Origin: Caballeronia insecticola
GTDB taxonomy: Bacteria > Pseudomonadota > Gammaproteobacteria > Burkholderiales > Burkholderiaceae
DNA: 64,000 bases
Direction of reading: 5' to 3'
NCBI RefSeq assembly: GCF_000402035.1
Contig: NC_021294.1
Location: 496,001-560,000 of the forward strand
Made by a program: the position numbers and the translations under genes. How positions within the stretch are numbered: the stretch's first letter is position 1; each line of letters opens with the position of its first letter. Positions 1-9,123 of this stretch are shown in pieces. A model generated the notes under the pieces. That model did no database searches and was not told where the DNA came from. It saw only the letters and a list, made by a program, of their open reading frames with translations.

Positions 1-1
1 C

Positions 2-415
2 GGTTCGGCTGACGGCACGGTCAAGCTGCCGGCAGTCCAGACTCGGGATCTGACGGGCGCATCCGGCAAGATCACGGGCGGCGATACCAGCTACAAGGTC
101 ATTCTGAAGAACTGTACCGCGATTACGGGCTTCAGCAAGGCGCTGGTGTTCTATCAGGCAGGGGCAACGGTTGACCCGGTTGACGGCCGACTGATCGTTC
201 AGCCGGGTGGTGCCGAGAACGTCAAGATCGAACTGTTGAATCAAGACGGCACCCAGATCAAGGCGGGCTACGCAACCGATCTGCAGAACTCCAAGGCGGT
301 CGATATCTCTTCGGGTGGCGCCACGTTGTGGTACATCGCGCGCTATTACGCCACGGGTCAAACGACCGCAGGCGCTGCAAATTCGTCGGTCGTCTACAGC
401 GTCGCTTATCAGTAA
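2..415 (+). CDS. Type 1 fimbrial major subunit (partial, 5' end outside window)
   Basis: The reading frame is open from the window edge to a TAA stop, so the start lies outside; about 137 residues are visible. They have the make-up of a FimA/PapA-type pilin: a Cys in a VILKNC context (the second half of the pilin disulfide), a small, polar, beta-rich domain, and an alternating hydrophobic C-terminus ending Y-S-V-A-Y-Q, the terminal strand that accepts chaperone and neighbouring subunits. A pilin of this family is secreted to the periplasm and polymerised on the cell surface by donor-strand exchange. A fimbrial chaperone gene follows 105 bp downstream, which supports the assignment. The usher gene that should complete the system is broken (see 1413-2828). 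Confidence 0.85.
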   Translation, partial: GSADGTVKLPAVQTRDLTGASGKITGGDTSYKVILKNCTAITGFSKALVFYQAGATVDPVDGRLIVQPGGAENVKIELLNQDGTQIKAGYATDLQNSKAVDISSGGATLWYIARYYATGQTTAGAANSSVVYSVAYQ

Positions 416-460
416 ATCGAGTTTTCTCGGGCGGCCTTCGCTTGAGCGAGGGCTGCGAAA

Positions 461-486
461 AGGCGGGTGCATGCCCGCCTGTCTTT
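461..486 (+). terminator. Hairpin between pilin and chaperone genes (possible attenuator)
   Basis: AGGCGGG and CCCGCCT form a perfect 7-bp stem around a 6-nt loop, followed by GTCTTTG. The T-run is short. A partial terminator after the major pilin gene is common in fimbrial operons and keeps subunit output above that of the assembly genes. That role is inferred here. Confidence 0.5.
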
Positions 487-520
487 GTAATTAAGTCGGG
501 TTAGGAGCTGCGTCGGCACT

Positions 521-1264
521 ATGAAATTGGCAAAAACATTGGTAAAGATCGCGACCGCGTGTGTCGTGCTGTTGGGTTTATCTGCCCAGGCAAACGCATC
601 GGTGGTGATCGCCGGAACGCGCGTCGTCTATAACCAGAGCGATTCCGAAGTCACGGTCAAGTTGACCAATACGGGCAAGCTCCCGGGGCTGATCAAGGTA
701 TGGCTGGACAAGGGCGATCCAGACGCGAAACCCGACACGATCGAGGTTCCGTTCACCATCACGCCTCCGCTGATGCGAATCGATCCGACGAAGTCGCAAA
801 CGCTGCGCATCATGTTTGCCGGTGATCCATTGCCAGCCGATAAAGAGTCGATCTTCTACCTGAACGTGCTTGAAGTGCCGCCGAAATCCACGGGCGACGG
901 GGCCTCATCGAATCAACTGCAACTGGCGTTTCGTACGCGTATCAAATTCTTTTATCGCCCGACCGGCCTGAAGGAACAATCCGTCGACGCTCCCGGGCAT
1001 ATCGTCTGGCATCTGAAGAAGCAAGGTGCCACCAACATGATTGAGGCGTCGAATTCGACAGAATTCCACGTTTCATTCGACAACGTCCAATACACCGATG
1101 GAACCCGCAATGCCGCCTTTATGGAGGGGGGTATGGTGGGTCCCGGCGAAACAAAGGATTTCCCTCTCAAGGGCGATTTGCCAGGCGCCGGTGCCAAGGT
1201 CAAGTGGACGGTCATTAACGACTATGGCGGACCTCAGCATGGTGAATCCACCATGTCGCCCTAA
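521..1264 (+). CDS. Periplasmic fimbrial chaperone, PapD/FimC family
   Basis: This 247-aa protein starts with a signal peptide (basic MKLAKT, then a hydrophobic stretch ending A-N-A-S). The first immunoglobulin-like domain follows, with the family pattern of a VVYNQSDSEVTVKLTN strand, the PPLMRIDP region and a Q-T-L-R-I-M-F strand before an ESIFYLNVLEVPP segment. Chaperones of this family cap pilin subunits in the periplasm by donor-strand complementation and hand them to the outer-membrane usher. Length is normal for the family. A TAGGAG lies 13-18 bp upstream of the ATG, rather distant. It lies between a pilin gene and a broken usher gene, so it may no longer have an assembly platform encoded here. 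Confidence 0.93.
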   Translation: MKLAKTLVKIATACVVLLGLSAQANASVVIAGTRVVYNQSDSEVTVKLTNTGKLPGLIKVWLDKGDPDAKPDTIEVPFTITPPLMRIDPTKSQTLRIMFAGDPLPADKESIFYLNVLEVPPKSTGDGASSNQLQLAFRTRIKFFYRPTGLKEQSVDAPGHIVWHLKKQGATNMIEASNSTEFHVSFDNVQYTDGTRNAAFMEGGMVGPGETKDFPLKGDLPGAGAKVKWTVINDYGGPQHGESTMSP

Positions 1265-1412
1265 ACGTTCAATCGGCCTTAACCGAAGTATGTGGCGGAA
1301 CGCGTAGCGCTAACGTAGTCGCCTCCGATCAATTCGAACCGAAGCATGAGCGTGCGTGATAACCGCATGCGGGACACGTTCATGCGTAAATTTCGAAGTA
1401 CTAAGAGCTATT

Positions 1413-2828
1413 ATGCATCTCCGTAGATCTCACGCGTCTGGATCGCGCTTAAGCCCGATCAGTATTGTCACGCTGCAGGCGATAGCCGCGATGGGCGTCA
1501 GTGCGCACGCGTGGGCCGACGCGCCACAACACTTCGCTCAGGTCGAGTTCAACGATCAGTTTCTTGACGCAGGAGGGTCCGACAAGGTCGACATCTCCCG
1601 TTTCAACAAGGGGCAGCAGGTTCTGCCGGGCACCTATCGGGTGGAAGCGTTCGTCAACGAACTGTGGCGGGGCAAGTTCGACGTCGAGATTCGCGAAGCA
1701 TCGCCGGGATCCGGCGAGATGCAGCCTTGCTTCAACAGCGATCTGCTGGAACGCGTCGGGGTGGACCTGAGGAAGCTTTCGCCGGAAGCGACCGCGAAGC
1801 TCGAATCCGCGGGTAAGGCCTGTCTGGTTTTGTCGGACCTGATCCCGAGCGCATATGCCTCGTTCGACGGCGGCGAGCAGCGAGTCGATATCAGCTTGCC
1901 GCAGATCGTCATGTTCAGCCGCGCGCGCGGCTACGTCGACCCGAAGTACTGGGACGAAGGCGTTCCCGCCGCTACCCTCCAGTACAACGCGAACGTCTAT
2001 CACAGTTCGGCCGGCGGCTATGCCAACGACACGCAGTATCTCGGCGTGATCGGCGGCCTGAACGCAGGTCCGTGGCGCTTCCGTTATCAGGGCAACCTGA
2101 CGAACTCCAATATCGGCGGCCAGCACTATCAATCGGTGCAAACGTACGTTCAGCGCGGCTTTAGCGATATCAAAAGTCAGTTGACGGTCGGCGACACCTT
2201 CACCGATGGCGCGCTCTTCGATAGCTACGGGGTGCGCGGCGTTACGCTGCGCGAACTGGACGCGCGTCATACACGTGATGTTCAGGACGTCCGGACGCGC
2301 TTCGAACAGGAACGGCAGGACGTCACCATATCCGCCCCGAAGGGCGGCACTGTCACGTTCTCTGGACTTGTCGCGGGTCGCATGCTGGCGGCCAGCGATG
2401 TCGCGCTGGTAATCGCGACGAAGGAAAACGGCCCGTTGCGGGCGGCGTTGAGTATTCCGTCGCGTCGTCGAGGTTTCGTGCGGGAAGGTCAGACCATCAG
2501 ACTCAAGTTCGATGCGTTCCCCTACGCCAAGTTCGGCACCTACGAGGCGCACATCGACTCGATCTCGGGTACGACGGTTCTCCCCGCGAGCCCGCCGAGC
2601 CCGCCCGGTACGCCGGGCGGTTCAGACCCGGTGGAAGAAACGCCCGGCGCGAAGGACTCCGACGGCGACTATCTGGCCTGGGCGACATTGCGCAGCAATA
2701 CATTCGATTTCGACGGGCAACATTTCGCGATTCTCCCGGGGATGCGCGCGACGGCAAGTATTGTCGTCGAGCGCAGGTCGATCGTTGAGTGGGTGCTGGC
2801 GCCGCTGTTCCGAATGCTGAGAGGTTGA
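1413..2828 (+). CDS. Chimeric ORF: fimbrial usher N-terminus fused to HlyD/CvaA-type adaptor C-terminus
   Basis: The ATG at 1413 gives 471 aa and a normal signal peptide; the frame is open further upstream to 1356. Residues about 35-275 are a fimbrial usher (PapC/FimD) N-terminus: FNDQFLDAGG, DISRF, PGTYRVEAFVNE, then the beginning of the barrel (TVGDTFTDGALFDSYGVRG). From about residue 280 the sequence changes to the C-terminal half of a HlyD/CvaA membrane-fusion protein: end of a coiled coil, the lipoyl-like strand TISAPKGGTVT, GFVREGQ, DAFPYAKFG, and a final hydrophobic ILPGMRA...WVLAPLF segment. Ushers are usually about 800-870 aa and these adaptors about 400-450 aa, so about 550 usher residues and the adaptor's N-terminus with its membrane anchor are missing. 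The fusion is in frame. A deletion between two once-adjacent clusters is the simplest explanation; an assembly misjoin is the alternative. Neither parental function is likely to survive. Confidence 0.8.
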   Translation: MHLRRSHASGSRLSPISIVTLQAIAAMGVSAHAWADAPQHFAQVEFNDQFLDAGGSDKVDISRFNKGQQVLPGTYRVEAFVNELWRGKFDVEIREASPGSGEMQPCFNSDLLERVGVDLRKLSPEATAKLESAGKACLVLSDLIPSAYASFDGGEQRVDISLPQIVMFSRARGYVDPKYWDEGVPAATLQYNANVYHSSAGGYANDTQYLGVIGGLNAGPWRFRYQGNLTNSNIGGQHYQSVQTYVQRGFSDIKSQLTVGDTFTDGALFDSYGVRGVTLRELDARHTRDVQDVRTRFEQERQDVTISAPKGGTVTFSGLVAGRMLAASDVALVIATKENGPLRAALSIPSRRRGFVREGQTIRLKFDAFPYAKFGTYEAHIDSISGTTVLPASPPSPPGTPGGSDPVEETPGAKDSDGDYLAWATLRSNTFDFDGQHFAILPGMRATASIVVERRSIVEWVLAPLFRMLRG

Positions 2829-2831
2829 GTT

Positions 2832-4949
2832 TTGCGAGTTATTTATCAGAATGAAGTCGCCGAGTGCGGATACGCATGCCTCGCGATGGTGTTGTCGAAT
2901 CTTGGACGCGCTACCGAAGTGCGGGAGTTGTCGGCGCACAAGCCGATTTCGGCGAACGGTCTTTCCTTGATGGACCTGTACGACGTGGCCATCGAATACG
3001 GACTGGCGGTGCAGGCCTTTCGTTTCGATCCTTCGCATTTGTCGCAGGTGAAGAAAGGCTCGATCATGCATTTCGGCGGCGCCCACTTCGTCGTGTTCGA
3101 GAAGATCAGCCGCGGCTACATCAGCATCATCGATCCCGCGACGGGACGGCGGCGCGTGTCGATGGACACGTTCCGCTCGGCCGTATCGGGCTTTCTGCTG
3201 GAGTTCGCGCCGACGCCGGAGATGCCGCGCATTCGCGCGAAATCCCGCGTTCCGGCGGCGCTCGCCCGTGTTCGCGCGCTCAATCCGCAGCTCAGAAAGC
3301 AGATTGGCAAGGTGCTGTTCGTCGCGTTGGGCAGCCAGTTCGCGATTCTCGCGATGCCGTATTTCGGCAATCTCGTGCTCGATTACGTCGTCGCCGCGGA
3401 CAACCGCAATCTGTTGAATACGCTCGTCATAACGTTCGCCAGCATTTTCCTGCTGGGCGCGCTAAGTGAATACGTCCAGAAGTATCTGACCGAGCTGCTT
3501 TACAACCTGACGCAGATCAACTCGACCGCAGGTCTTGTTGGTCACTTGCTGCGCAATCCGATGTCCTGGTTCGAAAAGCGCCACGTCGGCGATGTGTTCG
3601 CGCGGGTGAAATCCCAGGATGAAATCAGCATCTTCGCGACGCGTACCGCGGTCTCGCTCTACATCGATCTGACCGTGGGCACGATCGCGCTGATGCTCAT
3701 GTTGATTCAGAGTCCGCCGCTCACCGCCATCGCACTGGTCATCTTCGCCATGTACGTGATCGTCGCGTTTTGCATGTATCCCGCCATGCGCGATACGGCT
3801 GCGCTCGTGATGGAGACATCCGCGCGCTGCGACGATTCGATGATCGAGACCATTCGCGCGGCATCGTTGCTCAAGCTCGCACAGGGCGAGACGCGGCGCA
3901 CGGCGATCTACATGACGCTTTTCAAGGCCTACGCATCGGCGGTCCTTCAGCGCAGCCGGCTCACCTGCACACGCGACGCGATCCTCAAGCTGGTCAATTA
4001 CGCGGACACGATCATCATTACGTGGCTCGCGGCTCAACTGATGCTTGGCGGGAAGGTTTCGGTCGGTGTGTTCTATTCCTTCCTGATTTACAAGTCGCTC
4101 ATGTCCGAGCGGCTGGCCAGCGGCATCAACGCAACGTTTCAGTACTTCATGCTGAGCGTTCCGACGGCGCGCGTCGACGATATCGTCGAATGCGAGAACG
4201 AGCGTTATACGCCGCTCACCGACACGCAACGCGCAACCGAAGTGCGGCAATTCGAGCAGATCCAGGTGCGTGATGTCACGTTCACCTACGGGATCTCCGA
4301 TCAGCCGGTGCTGCGACACGCGAACATCGACATCCGCAAGGGCGACAAGATCGTCATTACCGGTCCGTCGGGTAGCGGTAAGTCCACGCTGTTCAAACTG
4401 CTGTCGGCGTCCGAGCCGCTGCAGGAAGGACAGATTACGCTGAACGGCATCGCGTGGCCGAATCTTGCCGTCGATGAAATTCGCCGTCATCAGGCGCACA
4501 TGCGCCAGGGCGACATCATCCTGCACGGTTCGATCGCGGACAACGTGACGCTCTTCGCCGGACAGACTGACGACGACCGCATCCACGCGATCCTCGAACA
4601 AGTCGGATTGCTTCCGGACATCATGAAGCTGCCGATGCGTACGCGCACCATCATCAGCGACACCATCGCGAATATTTCCGCCGGGCAGCGGCAGCGCCTC
4701 CTTCTGGCGCGCGCGCTCTACCAGCAGCGCGAAGTCCTGCTGCTCGACGAGCCGACATCGAACCTGGACCCGGTCTCGGTTCAACATGTCGCAGCGCTGT
4801 TGCGCGGGCTCGATCGCACGGTGGTGATCATTACCCATGACATGTCGCTCGCGTCGTGGTTCGACATGCGCTATCGCTTTGAAAACGGAACGCTCGTGCG
4901 TGAAGGGGATTCGCAAGCGGTGGCCTCGCCGGAAATGCTTCATGCTTAA
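2832..4949 (+). CDS. Peptidase-containing ABC exporter (C39 family, CvaB/bacteriocin type)
   Basis: This 705-aa protein starts at a TTG three bases after the upstream stop. An N-terminal C39 peptidase domain (residues 1-130) keeps the catalytic set: Gln6, Cys12 in AECGYAC, His85 in GGAHFVVF and Asp101 in IIDPATG. A six-helix ABC membrane domain follows (about 160-440), then an ATPase domain with Walker A GPSGSGKST (511-519), signature ISAGQRQR and Walker B VLLLDEPTS. Such exporters cut double-glycine leader peptides from bacteriocins or similar small peptides and export them through an adaptor and TolC. The TolC-like gene overlaps its 3' end, but the adaptor immediately upstream survives only as part of a chimera. 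No leader-peptide substrate gene was seen nearby. Confidence 0.92.
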   Translation: MRVIYQNEVAECGYACLAMVLSNLGRATEVRELSAHKPISANGLSLMDLYDVAIEYGLAVQAFRFDPSHLSQVKKGSIMHFGGAHFVVFEKISRGYISIIDPATGRRRVSMDTFRSAVSGFLLEFAPTPEMPRIRAKSRVPAALARVRALNPQLRKQIGKVLFVALGSQFAILAMPYFGNLVLDYVVAADNRNLLNTLVITFASIFLLGALSEYVQKYLTELLYNLTQINSTAGLVGHLLRNPMSWFEKRHVGDVFARVKSQDEISIFATRTAVSLYIDLTVGTIALMLMLIQSPPLTAIALVIFAMYVIVAFCMYPAMRDTAALVMETSARCDDSMIETIRAASLLKLAQGETRRTAIYMTLFKAYASAVLQRSRLTCTRDAILKLVNYADTIIITWLAAQLMLGGKVSVGVFYSFLIYKSLMSERLASGINATFQYFMLSVPTARVDDIVECENERYTPLTDTQRATEVRQFEQIQVRDVTFTYGISDQPVLRHANIDIRKGDKIVITGPSGSGKSTLFKLLSASEPLQEGQITLNGIAWPNLAVDEIRRHQAHMRQGDIILHGSIADNVTLFAGQTDDDRIHAILEQVGLLPDIMKLPMRTRTIISDTIANISAGQRQRLLLARALYQQREVLLLDEPTSNLDPVSVQHVAALLRGLDRTVVIITHDMSLASWFDMRYRFENGTLVREGDSQAVASPEMLHA

Positions 4950-6261
4950 ACGGACGCTCACAACCTGGGCTGTGGCGTCGGCCCTCGGATGCGCGCACGC
5001 CGCGCGGGCCGAGGACCTCGCTACTATCGTCCAGCAAGCACTCGATTACGATGCACAACTGGCCCAGGCGCGCGCCGATTACGAGGCGACGAAGCAATCG
5101 GTGCCCATCGCGCGCGCGGCCTTGCTGCCCCAGATCACGGGCGGCTGGGGGCGGGCGTACAACCGCATCGACATGGACGGCTTCCCCAGGCAGGCCTATT
5201 GGCAGAGCGGCTGGCTCGTCAACGTGTCGCAACCGCTCTTCGACTGGAGCCGGTGGGCAGCCTATCGTCAGGCCGATCTCGTGGTGGCGCAGGGCGCCGT
5301 CGATTTCGCGGGCGCGCAGCAGGACTCCATGCTTCGCGCGGTCCGTGCTTATTTCGACGAACTCGCCGCGGAAGACGAAGTGAAGCGCTCGGCGGAATAC
5401 CTGAAGGCTATCGACATTCAGCGCGATCAGGTGAGCCGCAAACGCGCGGCCGGCGAGGCGACGCTGATCGACACGCAGGAGGCCGAGACCGCGCACCAGC
5501 AAGCTCAGCTGCAAGTGATGGATGCGCAACAGGATCTGGGCGTCAAGCAGCGCGTGGTGCAGCAAGTGACCGGGCGCGCGTTTCCCGGGCTGAGCGCACT
5601 GCCGCCTGGCATCGCTTTGCCCAGTCTCACCGAAAGCGAACAAGTCTGGGCGGATCAGGCGAAGGCTTCGGGTTATGGCGTGCAGTCGAAGCAACTCGGC
5701 TGGGAAATCGCCAAATACGATTCGACCAAAGCGCGCTCGGCAGGCTATCCCACGGTCAACCTGGTGGGCAGTTATTCGCCGGCGGGCGCGGCGGGGGGCT
5801 ACTCGCGCCCGACCACGACGACTACCGCCATGTTGCAAGTGCAGATTCCGCTCTACGCGGGCGGTGAGATTCAGGCGAAGGTCAAGCAGTCGCTCGCATT
5901 AGAAGACAAGGCGGAGCAGGGCTACAAGGCTGCGTCGGTGCAAGCGGAAGCGTCGGCTCGGGATAACTTCGCGCGATACACGCGCGAGCGTATCCGTACC
6001 GACTCGCTTACGCGTCTCGTTGCATCGGCGAGCGACACGCTCAACGCGACGCAAATCGGCTACAAGGTTGGAAGCCGCGCGAGCACGGACGTTCTGCGCG
6101 CCATCGATACGCTCTACACCGCCAAGCGCGATCTGCTGCGCTCGCGTTACACCGCAATCGTCTCGTTCCTGCAACTCAAGGCCGACGTCGCGACCCTGAG
6201 CATGGCCGACATCGATTCGATGAGCGCGACCCTCTGCTGCGCGCCGGCAACCGCGAAGTAA
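4942..6261 (+). CDS. TolC-family outer membrane channel of the type I secretion cluster
   Basis: The ATG at 4942 overlaps the exporter stop by 8 bp, which implies coupling; it yields 439 aa with a clean signal peptide (MLKRTLTTW... ending A-R-A-E). The mature protein has the two internally repeated halves of the TolC/OEP family, with long amphipathic helices rich in Ala and Gln and the usual PxLxLxGSYS-like strand (YPTVNLVGSYSPAG). These proteins trimerise into an outer-membrane barrel with a periplasmic tunnel and dock to an inner-membrane exporter through a HlyD-type adaptor. The context ties it to the C39 exporter; with that adaptor damaged it would need another partner. Confidence 0.9.
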   Translation: MLKRTLTTWAVASALGCAHAARAEDLATIVQQALDYDAQLAQARADYEATKQSVPIARAALLPQITGGWGRAYNRIDMDGFPRQAYWQSGWLVNVSQPLFDWSRWAAYRQADLVVAQGAVDFAGAQQDSMLRAVRAYFDELAAEDEVKRSAEYLKAIDIQRDQVSRKRAAGEATLIDTQEAETAHQQAQLQVMDAQQDLGVKQRVVQQVTGRAFPGLSALPPGIALPSLTESEQVWADQAKASGYGVQSKQLGWEIAKYDSTKARSAGYPTVNLVGSYSPAGAAGGYSRPTTTTTAMLQVQIPLYAGGEIQAKVKQSLALEDKAEQGYKAASVQAEASARDNFARYTRERIRTDSLTRLVASASDTLNATQIGYKVGSRASTDVLRAIDTLYTAKRDLLRSRYTAIVSFLQLKADVATLSMADIDSMSATLCCAPATAK

Positions 6262-6271
6262 GCCAAGTAAA

Positions 6272-6853
6272 TCACTCGGCGCGCGCGTCGCGCCGGACCG
6301 CGCGCACTACGCGCGCGAGCGCCTTCAATGCGTCCGCGGGCGAATCCGCGAATTGCGCCGCGACGATCGCGCCATCCACCGCGAGCGCAAGCGCTTGCGC
6401 GTCGGCCTTCGCGGTGCGTGACGCCGGCATGAGCGCGCGAATCGCCGCGGTCATGTCGCGCTTATGGCGCCGCGAAATCTCCATCGCCTGCGGCAGCGTA
6501 CCGCCGACTTCCACCACCGAATTGATGAACGCGCAGCCGCGATACGCGTCGGCGCCGAACCATTCCGCAAGCGCAGGCACGAGCGCGGGCAGTCTGCCGC
6601 CATGACGCTGCAATGCTTCGCGAAACCACGTGATCCAGACCTCGTGCCGATAATCCAGGAACGCGACAATTAACGCGTCCTTGCTCGGAAAATAGCGATA
6701 AAACGTCTTCTTCGCGACGCCCGATTCGGCGATCACGCGATCGATGCCTGTGGCGCGAATGCCATCGCGATAGAACAAATCGTGCGCAGTATGAAGAATG
6801 CGCGCGTCCGGCGCAAGGTCCACAATATTGGCTGAGACGGAAGCAGTATTCAT
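6272..6853 (-). CDS. TetR/AcrR family transcriptional regulator
   Basis: This 193-aa protein has an N-terminal TetR helix-turn-helix (about residues 14-60): ILHTAHDLFYRDGIRATGIDRVIAESGVAK is followed by TFYRYFPSKDALI, the family signature. The remainder is an all-helical ligand-binding and dimerisation domain. It is transcribed away from the DUF1348 gene at 6969, and the 115-bp gap holds two identical-type palindromes (6864-6881 and 6901-6918). The likely role is a repressor of itself and of the divergent gene, relieved by an unknown small molecule. The position of the palindromes is observed; the regulation is inferred. Confidence 0.92.
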   Translation of the reverse strand: MNTASVSANIVDLAPDARILHTAHDLFYRDGIRATGIDRVIAESGVAKKTFYRYFPSKDALIVAFLDYRHEVWITWFREALQRHGGRLPALVPALAEWFGADAYRGCAFINSVVEVGGTLPQAMEISRRHKRDMTAAIRALMPASRTAKADAQALALAVDGAIVAAQFADSPADALKALARVVRAVRRDARAE

Positions 6854-6863
6854 GCATCCGATT

Positions 6864-6881
6864 GTAGACAGGTTTGTCTAC
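6864..6881. promoter_or_regulatory. TetR-type operator 1
   Basis: GTAGACA-GGTT-TGTCTAC is a perfect 7-bp inverted repeat with a 4-bp spacer, 11 bp from the TetR start codon. It shares both arms with the second site at 6901-6918. Twin palindromes in a divergent tetR promoter region are the expected binding sites for the adjacent repressor. Confidence 0.8.
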
Positions 6882-6900
6882 CTGCGCTAGAGTGCGCCAG

Positions 6901-6918
6901 GTAGACAGAGCTGTCTAC
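6901..6918. promoter_or_regulatory. TetR-type operator 2
   Basis: GTAGACA-GAGC-TGTCTAC has the same 7-bp arms as operator 1 with a different 4-bp spacer. The centres are 37 bp apart, about three and a half helical turns, so two dimers could sit on the DNA without clashing. It lies 50 bp upstream of the DUF1348 start. Confidence 0.8.
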
Positions 6919-6968
6919 TTCTCGCTGTTCTTCTCGTTGTTCGTCACTCACTTCAAAGAGGACTCGCC

Positions 6969-7436
6969 ATGGAAAGCAAACCGCCGTTCCCGCCGTTCGA
7001 TGAAGAATCGGCCAAGTTGAAGGTTCGACTCGCGGAAGATGGATGGAATACGCGCGACCCCGAGCGCGTGTCGCTGGCGTATAGCGTCGACACGCGCTGG
7101 CGCAATCGCGCGGAGTTTGCGAACGGCCGTGAGGAAGTGGTCGCGTTTCTGCGGCGCAAATGGGCGCGCGAACTCGACTATCGGTTGATCAAGGAGCTTT
7201 GGGCGTACACCGGCAATCGCATTGCGGTGCGTTTCGCCTACGAATGGCACGACGACGCCAACAATTGGTATCGCAGCTACGGCAACGAGAACTGGGAGTT
7301 CAACGAAGCCGGGCTGATGACGCATCGTCATGCGTCCATCAACGATCTGCCGATCAAGGAAGCGGACCGCAAATATCACTGGCCGCTCGGTCGCCGGCCC
7401 GACGATCATCCGGGTTTGAGCGATCTGGGCTTCTGA
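6969..7436 (+). CDS. DUF1348 (NTF2/SnoaL-like) family protein
   Basis: This 155-aa soluble protein begins with [10 protein letters not shown] and has the conserved DUF1348 pattern: [57 protein letters not shown] and YGNENWEF, then a [11 protein letters not shown] motif. The family adopts the cone-shaped NTF2/SnoaL fold with a small-molecule pocket; its biochemical role is not established. An AGAGGA ribosome-binding site lies 6-11 bp upstream of the ATG. It is divergent from the TetR gene across paired operators, so it is probably that regulator's main target and may be induced under chemical stress. Length matches the family. Confidence 0.88.
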
Positions 7437-7457
7437 CCGCTCGAACGCTCGCGTGCA

Positions 7458-8480
7458 CTAGAGATTGCGGCTGCGCCGGAACGCCCACCATCCGGCCAGC
7501 GCGGTGAAGCTCGCGACGATCACCACCAGCAGCCAGAAGCCGTGATGATTCTCCGCGAGCGGAATGCCGCCGACGTTCATGCCGAAGAAACCCGCGACAA
7601 TATTGATCGGCAGCGCGAGCACGGTGACGAGCGTCAGCGTAAACAGCGTGCGGTTGCTTTGCTCGTCCATGCGCGTCGCGACTTCTTCTTGCAGAAGCTT
7701 GATGCGCTCGACGAGGCCCGCGAGATCGTTCAGCACGAGCGAAAATTCTTCGGTCGCGTCGCGCAAGTCCTGGATGTCCTGCGAGTGCAGCCAGCGCGGC
7801 GGCCGCGCGAGCAGCCGGAACACGGAACCGGGCTCCGGCGCGAGCAGCCGCTGCAATCTCACGAGCACGCGGCGCAGGCCGCCGAGATCGGTGCGCGTCT
7901 CGGTGACGCGCCGCGCGAGAAAGCGATCCTCGATGCCATCCACTTCGACGCTCGTCCGCCGCACGATATGCACAAGCAAGTCGGCCTGATCGCGCAGCAG
8001 ATGCGCGAGCAATTCGGCGGGCGAGCGAAACAATTCGCCGCGCCTGACCGACTCGCGCAGCGAATCGACCGAGCGCAACGGCTTGAGGCGCGCCGTGACG
8101 AGCAGTTTCTGATGCGTATAGACCCAGAGCGTCGCGATTTCCGAGGGCGTCAACTCGAAGTTGAACATCACGTCGTTGATGACCGCGAAGAGCGCACCTT
8201 CCTGGTGCTCGATGCGCGTCGAGTGCGATCCTTCGTGCAGCGTGTCGAAGAACGCGTCGGGCAGGCCGAGACGTCCGCGCATCCAGCGTTCGCACGCGCT
8301 GTTCGCCAAATCGAAATGCAGCCAGACGAATTCCTTCGGCGTGTCGTCGCGGGTGAGCCATTCGCTCGCGGCTTCGGCGTCGATCGGCATGCCGGGCTCA
8401 TCGGCGTGAAATCGGAAGCCACAGACGAGGCCGGAGAAGTCGGAACCGTAGGGCGGTCTTTGCGGGATAGCGGGATTCAT
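7458..8480 (-). CDS. CorA/ZntB-family divalent cation transporter
   Basis: This 340-aa protein has a large N-terminal cytoplasmic domain (residues 1-270) with long helices, then two C-terminal membrane segments. The signature GMN tripeptide sits at the end of TM1 (GFFGMNVGG), and a second segment (FWLLVVIVASFTALAGWWAF) precedes a basic tail. CorA-type proteins form homopentameric funnels for Mg2+ or related ions, and the ZntB branch moves Zn2+. The MNVGGIP context resembles ZntB-like members, but the substrate cannot be read from the sequence. It converges with the DUF1348 gene (21 bp between stops). Confidence 0.88.
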   Translation of the reverse strand: MNPAIPQRPPYGSDFSGLVCGFRFHADEPGMPIDAEAASEWLTRDDTPKEFVWLHFDLANSACERWMRGRLGLPDAFFDTLHEGSHSTRIEHQEGALFAVINDVMFNFELTPSEIATLWVYTHQKLLVTARLKPLRSVDSLRESVRRGELFRSPAELLAHLLRDQADLLVHIVRRTSVEVDGIEDRFLARRVTETRTDLGGLRRVLVRLQRLLAPEPGSVFRLLARPPRWLHSQDIQDLRDATEEFSLVLNDLAGLVERIKLLQEEVATRMDEQSNRTLFTLTLVTVLALPINIVAGFFGMNVGGIPLAENHHGFWLLVVIVASFTALAGWWAFRRSRNL

Positions 8481-8754
8481 GCGGAATTCGGTTGCGGTTC
8501 TGATGATTCGGCGGGCGTGCTGCCGGCGTCCGTACGTTGCATGCGCACTGTCCGCGCTAGTGTGCCACCGGTCGCGCCCCGAATTGCGATGACAGGGGTG
8601 ACGTTAAGCGCGATCGTAACGCGCGAGCGCGGGCGAAACGATCGCGGCGTATGTATCGGCACGCGCAAATACGACTGTCATATTGACGGCGTATCATCGC
8701 GCCACGCAAGACGGGCGCACGTGCCGCGCCGCGAGCCAACCTGGGGAGAAGGCA

Positions 8755-9123
8755 GTGGAAGACAGTGACGATCTGGATGGCACGACGCAGACGACCGCCG
8801 GAGGACTGATTCGGCTGGCGTCGGTGATCGCCGTGCTCGCGCGCGAAGGCGTGGTGGACACGCGTTTCGGCGCGAAGCTTTTCAAGCGCCTCGACAAGGA
8901 AGCGCGGCGCGTGGCCGGGCACGGCCCGACGCCGCTCGACGAAGTCGACCAGGCGGCGCTTTTCGGCGCGCTCGGCGAACTCGATGTTGCGTTGCGCCAG
9001 CGCGACGCGGCGTCGCTCGTCGAAGCGAACGCGCGTCTTCGTGACAGCGAAAGCGAAAGTGAAGGCGCAAGCGAAAACGCGACGGGCAAGCGGCGCAAGA
9101 GCAAGAAGGAAGGCGACGTCTGA
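8755..9123 (+). CDS. Hypothetical protein, conserved-looking small soluble protein
   Basis: The GTG at 8755 is chosen because GGGGAGA (8743-8749) is correctly spaced; the frame is open to 8683 without a better start. The product is 122 aa, with an N-terminal helical region (GGLIRLASVIAVLAREGVVDTRFGAKLFKRL) and a charged Ser/Glu/Lys-rich tail ending RRKSKKEGDV. No signal peptide or membrane segment is seen. I do not recognise the family. It stands upstream of a receiver-domain gene, separated by a 7-bp GC-rich hairpin (9148-9166), so cotranscription is uncertain. Confidence 0.65.
   Translation: MEDSDDLDGTTQTTAGGLIRLASVIAVLAREGVVDTRFGAKLFKRLDKEARRVAGHGPTPLDEVDQAALFGALGELDVALRQRDAASLVEANARLRDSESESEGASENATGKRRKSKKEGDV

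Follow-up and report, generated by a model that had tools for sequence, protein, structure and literature searches.

An in-frame hybrid of a fimbrial usher and a type I secretion adaptor in Caballeronia insecticola is probably a rearrangement scar

One open reading frame of Caballeronia insecticola begins as a fimbrial usher and ends as a type I secretion adaptor. It runs without interruption for 471 amino acids, from an ATG at position 1413 to a TGA ending at position 2828, on the forward strand of the window, which is the whole stretch of 64,000 nucleotides that was analyzed (NC_021294.1, positions 496,001 to 560,000). The hybrid is a true in-frame join of an usher start and an adaptor end, and we give a probability of about 0.8 to its being a non-working scar, left by a rearrangement that took place recently in a single Caballeronia lineage. 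Comparison with relatives shows an ancestral cluster with the order pilin, chaperone, usher, tip adhesin, minor pilin, GG-leader peptides, acyltransferase-like gene, adaptor, C39 exporter and TolC. At the window site this cluster would have broken and rejoined from usher codon 279 to adaptor codon 217, while part of its middle would have moved about 710 kb, in inverted orientation, to a junction with mobile-element debris. The in-frame hybrid may carry ribosomes to the adaptor's own stop codon, so that the exporter and TolC genes stay translated; this would be its only plausible use, and an indirect one.

The usher part (1413-2249, plus strand; usher residues 1-279) contains the N-terminal leader, the N-terminal domain and the first barrel strands. 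The adaptor part (2250-2828, plus strand; adaptor residues 218-409) contains what we take to be the last coiled-coil turns, the second lipoyl half, a beta-barrel-like domain and the C-terminus. An automatic list of open reading frames starts the hybrid at a GTG at 1356, but the ATG at 1413 is preferred as the equivalent of the C. ptereochthonis start. The putative signal peptide was read off the sequence by eye, with no prediction program.

Profile matches to the two halves agree with this division. The Pfam model PapC_N (PF13954) covers residues 45-194 (3.4e-45; profile positions 1-145 of 146), and Usher (PF00577) covers residues 212-281 with profile positions 4-73 of 549 only. A complete 24-strand barrel with its plug is lacking, since only the start of PF00577 is matched and the structure model has six strands, and the PapC C-terminal domain (PF13953) is absent from the hybrid but present in the intact usher of a relative. 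In the other half, the C-terminal HlyD domain HlyD_3 (PF13437) lies at residues 305-388 (3.2e-8; 34.7 bits against a cut-off of 22.2). The whole-family model type_I_hlyD (TIGR01843) scores 53.5 bits over residues 289-467, below its cut-off of 208.65, and the N-terminal anchor and coiled-coil hairpin are missing with adaptor residues 1-216. Fourteen of the 15 NCBIfam usher models listed stop at residues 278-287 (one reaches 333), and PDB matches to FimD and PapC end at residues 281-283. The claim of an earlier sequence-only reading, that a single frame joins an usher start to an adaptor end, is thus borne out by Pfam and NCBIfam, as is its expectation of PF13954/PF00577 in the first half and HlyD-type domains in the second. 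Relative to the C. ptereochthonis genes, the hybrid lacks 582 residues of the usher and 216 of the adaptor.

The position of the join can be fixed to one codon. Codon-level alignments of the usher and adaptor genes of 10 relatives converge on hybrid codon 279, a CTG for Leu279 at 2247-2249 on the plus strand, which falls inside the zone of change predicted at 2235-2260. The hybrid matches the usher to the left of this codon (GVRGVTL) and the adaptor to its right (LRELDARH); the usher stops after codon 279 and the adaptor follows from its codon 217 onward. C. ptereochthonis has CTG at the join position in both parent genes, which gives 3 nt in common, although it is not the actual parent and the true microhomology may differ by about one base. 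The usher codon at this position is CTC or CTT in the nine other relatives. No insertion-sequence junction is seen at the site, and homology to relatives reaches the join from both sides. The other two frames past the join would stop after 8 and 53 codons. An in-frame outcome of a random join is a one-in-three event, and it is possible either that it arose by chance or that it helped to keep translation of the exporter coupled.

The genes on both sides of the hybrid are those expected of the two parental systems. Upstream are a major pilin gene (2-415, plus strand; FimA/Fimbrial in Pfam), whose 5' end is beyond the window, and a gene for a PapD-type periplasmic chaperone (521-1264, plus strand; PapD_N and PapD_C) that is 88% identical to the C. 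ptereochthonis copy. Downstream, both remaining genes of a type I secretion operon are uninterrupted. The C39-peptidase ABC exporter gene (2832-4949, plus strand; Pfam and NCBIfam) has a TTG start 3 nt past the hybrid stop, and it is followed by the gene for a TolC-type outer-membrane channel (4942-6261, plus strand; OEP and type_I_sec_TolC above cut-off). The TolC matches were made on the open reading frame at 4837-6261, and the start at 4942 is our choice. These Pfam and NCBIfam assignments uphold the gene order proposed from sequence, which places the hybrid between pilin and chaperone genes on one side and C39 exporter and TolC genes on the other.

The nearest named genome is that of C. 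ptereochthonis LMG 29326, where the usher half (81-83% identical) and the adaptor half (87-88%) correspond to two separate genes. Chaperone, usher, adaptor and C39 exporter genes occur in order and on one strand in 11 of the 14 same-genus stretches fetched; within the stretch taken, the other three have only the chaperone and usher (L119) or only the adaptor and exporter (L121, L122). The parents of the hybrid were therefore neighbors in one ancestral cluster. An origin by bringing together two unrelated clusters is ruled out by this adjacency, and the earlier idea that two clusters had been joined is not sustained, whereas the intact usher and adaptor that were to be looked for side by side in sister species are found there in the same order and strand. 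The gap between the two join points measures 6007-7015 bp in 10 relatives. The C. ptereochthonis gap contains the remainder of the usher, genes for a tip adhesin, a minor pilin and three GG-leader peptides, a 336-aa ORF to which no Pfam model matches, and adaptor codons 1-216, so that fimbrial tip genes do lie between usher and adaptor as had been supposed.

Sister species keep both parents intact and separate, which indicates that the two were joined recently; within the reach of the searches, the fused architecture is not a conserved one. No further match covering both halves occurs in the 58 genus genomes searched (the C. insecticola genome included). Among the best 120 of 224 matches in a protein search, the only one to span both halves is the hybrid's own record, with 94% of the query covered, against 59% for the next match. 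Each of 74 loci from an 84,980-genome collection matches one half, with some alignments running up to about 36 residues beyond the join. The same fused architecture in many species, which would point away from a recent event, was thus looked for without success in the genus genomes, the matches listed and the 74 loci, and a conserved fused family is not supported. In the titles and abstract openings returned by a literature search, we recognized no such hybrid and none of the peptides described below. Shortened related ushers occur elsewhere in the genus, with open frames of 746 aa (L015, G057) and 729 aa (G037:C3:393763-394590), and a related usher of 734 aa (P0002) is among the protein matches listed.

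Much of the cluster middle is found at C4:1208547-1215496 on the minus strand, about 710 kb from the hybrid, on the same contig and inverted. A search of the C. insecticola genome with C. ptereochthonis DNA finds the window itself and two further minus-strand segments, C4:1208549-1209870 (76%) and C4:1213930-1215443 (73%). In gene order, the displaced piece (in stretch L131) encodes a tip adhesin that begins at residue 58 (71.6% amino acid identity to C. ptereochthonis), the minor pilin (80.6%), the acyltransferase-like protein (78.0%) and the first 90 residues of the adaptor (85.6%). Between the pilin and acyltransferase-like genes are five GG-leader peptide genes, all uninterrupted, and two near-identical displaced GG-leader genes 1508 bases apart look like a duplication. 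The adaptor piece is a 117-aa ORF in which homology is lost beyond residue 90. With the C. ptereochthonis DNA as query, tip adhesin residues 1-57 and adaptor residues 91-216 have no match in the genome, and for usher residues 280-861 there are just matches of 65-71% at two other usher loci, both on C1.

Both edges of the displaced piece are disrupted. The adaptor side gives way to unrelated sequence and an interrupted Mutator-family transposase (L131 7161-8453), of which the genome has one other copy, 95% alike, and which has many relatives in G039 and G037. The tip side runs toward the type VI secretion gene tssF (L131 15746-17260, minus strand), which is cut short at profile position 465 of 608. 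In G037, the left flank of L131 has its match on C2 at about 1.205-1.209 Mb and the right flank on the same contig at about 0.235-0.242 Mb, reversed. Because these counterparts are about 967 kb apart and in opposite orientation, the displaced site is a rearrangement junction relative to G037. The single deletion envisaged earlier is not supported: a large part of the material missing from the window site survives, displaced and inverted. A middle that lies so far away, inverted and at a synteny break with transposase debris, makes a more complex rearrangement more likely.

Codon alignments of C. insecticola with C. ptereochthonis (NG86, own script) suggest that this event was recent. The dN/dS values are 0.077 for the chaperone, 0.123 for the usher part, 0.113 for the adaptor part, 0.097 for the exporter and 0.206 for TolC, and in the displaced piece they are 0.133 for the tip adhesin, 0.092 for the pilin, 0.112 for the acyltransferase-like gene and 0.117 for adaptor residues 1-90. 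None of these nine pieces contains a stop codon. Values of 0.08-0.21 with intact frames imply little decay and therefore little elapsed time. Relaxed selection specific to the hybrid is not seen; a non-synonymous distance to the outgroups slightly larger than that of C. ptereochthonis is common to all nine pieces. This result would also fit a hybrid that is still in use.

We favor, short of proof, the view that the same piece moved, ahead of one in which the sequence at 1.21 Mb is left over from an older, second copy of the cluster. In the latter case a simple deletion of 6-7 kb would have made the hybrid, and the second copy would have lost its ends independently. At face value the synonymous distances count against the scar and for an older copy, since pS to C. 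ptereochthonis is 0.61-0.64 for the displaced tip, pilin and acyltransferase-like genes, as compared with 0.40-0.51 for the window pieces and 0.45 for adaptor residues 1-90. However, C. ptereochthonis and the outgroups also differ more in these three genes (0.68-0.74, with 0.66 for adaptor residues 1-90 and 0.52-0.60 for the window pieces; means taken without four more distant or partial stretches, L119-L122), which blunts the argument, and with gene rate allowed for, the relative distances are similar. FastTree trees with 11-13 relatives place C. insecticola as the sister of C. ptereochthonis for all nine pieces with local support of 0.95-1.00 (1.00, 1.00, 1.00 and 0.98 for the four displaced ones), which weakens the case for an older copy and strengthens that for a scar. 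The displaced set matches just one cluster in C. ptereochthonis, and blastn finds no overlap between it and window positions 1-9000. An older copy would be compatible with the several related ushers of another species (G037) and with displaced GG peptides that do not agree with the C. ptereochthonis ones in sequence or in number. The surroundings of the cluster also vary, with colinearity at the window site downstream in all five genomes compared and upstream in only two (C. ptereochthonis and G037), and this counts against a scar, although colinearity on both sides with these two speaks for one. On balance we regard an older second copy as unlikely.

An assembly error, with an intact cluster in the real genome, is very improbable. 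The hybrid is known from a single genome assembly, and although its database cluster counts two member sequences, just one could be traced. Parental homology continues up to a join with only 3 nt shared, so the join does not sit in a repeat common to both parents. The missing usher part, paralogues apart, is not found elsewhere in the assembly, in which the window belongs to contig C4 (1,465,356 bases) of a 7.0-Mb genome in five contigs that is 99.99% complete. In addition, the displaced middle is bounded by a second set of breaks, which would be hard to produce by one assembly mistake.

A functional hybrid that is exported and, as a split adaptor or one anchored by its usher part, continues to serve the downstream exporter is harder still to credit. 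Both halves are free of stops and have low dN/dS, and the exporter, TolC, the five GG peptide genes and the N-terminal 90 adaptor residues all survive in the genome. Nevertheless, the hybrid has neither anchor nor hairpin, homology in the displaced N-terminal piece is lost past residue 90, and no homologue of the same architecture is among the matches listed. An AlphaFold model built from an alignment of only 32 rows has a mean pLDDT of 54 and a pTM of 0.29 and is confident only in the usher N-terminal domain. Averaged in ten-residue blocks, pLDDT is 75-88 for residues 71-170, 62-73 for the strands at 181-240, 30-46 for 251-340 and 29-67 for the tail at 341-471. The model has six strands within residues 187-281 and one helix (286-303) at the expected place of the hairpin. 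Foldseek matches it to FimD, PapC and isolated usher N-terminal domains, with a per-target TM-score (0.64-0.83) that is high only for the isolated domains, and its weak matches to adaptors (BesA and MacA among them; E about 0.02) are a further point in favor of function.

Ushers form a 24-strand barrel with a plug and C-terminal domains, and HlyD-type adaptors need an anchor and a hairpin. Judging from what is missing, the hybrid should be unable to form a pore, with about six of 24 strands and neither plug nor C-terminal domains, and equally unable to act as an adaptor, having lost the membrane anchor, the first lipoyl half and almost all of the hairpin. Its signal peptide should direct export and the usher N-terminal domain may fold, but the protein is most likely degraded. 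That the anchored N-terminal 90 residues from 1.21 Mb might join a C-terminal half delivered by the usher signal into a split, hairpin-less adaptor between exporter and TolC, keeping peptide export running in trans somewhat like BesA (an adaptor that has no hairpin), seems barely conceivable.

The displaced genes belong to a peptide-export module that is found more widely. Small peptides beginning with M-x-K-I-x-R-x-x-L, followed by GG and a short tail rich in Ser/Thr or Cys/Pro, are encoded beside an acyltransferase-like gene, an adaptor and a C39 exporter (L131, L038, L109-L122). The acyltransferase label comes from a weak match to PF03279 (E 0.047) that is below cut-off. We examined 39 loci matching the adaptor half, leaving out two weak ones (L106 and L107); most are from Paraburkholderia and three from Herbaspirillum, and three (L053, L066, L089) are also in the genus-genome set. 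All 39 have the exporter, 36 have the acyltransferase-like gene and 32 have at least one GG-leader peptide by our own pattern. A weak usher match (38-41%) occurs within the stretch examined at only three. The peptide-export module thus stands on its own, and part of Caballeronia carries it next to a fimbrial cluster. No paper on such a module was recognized among the titles and abstract openings retrieved. In Candidatus Paraburkholderia kirkii (L025/L089, G018) the adaptor is apparently broken, with matches in several frames, an internal TAG in one of them, and a partial match to the exporter. C. insecticola also has a second C39-type locus at about 810-815 kb on C4 (L157, C4:806001-818000) with ORFs of 1040 aa, 257 aa and 457 aa, the last HlyD-like. 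We considered this HlyD-like ORF as a substitute adaptor, but it is about 35% identical over the tail and sits beside a different, longer exporter ORF, with no evidence of exchange.

The locus offers a clean comparative example of an in-frame hybrid of two unrelated envelope proteins arising from one broken cluster, and it cautions that annotations of chimeric genes can reflect rearrangement scars. The displaced middle and the peptide module are more informative than the hybrid itself. The locus also points to a conserved set of GG-leader peptides, acyltransferase-like gene and C39 exporter in Caballeronia and Paraburkholderia. If the exporter is still expressed, the locus is a natural test of whether a reading frame was kept to protect downstream genes.

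Compared with FimD/PapC ushers (PF13954, PF00577, PF13953), the hybrid has the leader, the N-terminal domain and the first barrel strands but lacks the 582 residues that make up most of the barrel, the plug and the C-terminal domains. From the HlyD/CvaA adaptors of Caballeronia and Paraburkholderia (PF26002/PF13437, TIGR01843) it keeps the last 193 residues and the same downstream C39 exporter and TolC genes, but not the first 216 residues with the inner-membrane anchor, the first lipoyl half and most of the hairpin. Chimeric pseudogenes produced by illegitimate recombination are a known general kind, and the hybrid resembles them as a one-off in-frame join between two genes of one cluster at a very short microhomology. 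It differs from them in that much of the lost middle of its locus survives elsewhere on the same contig.
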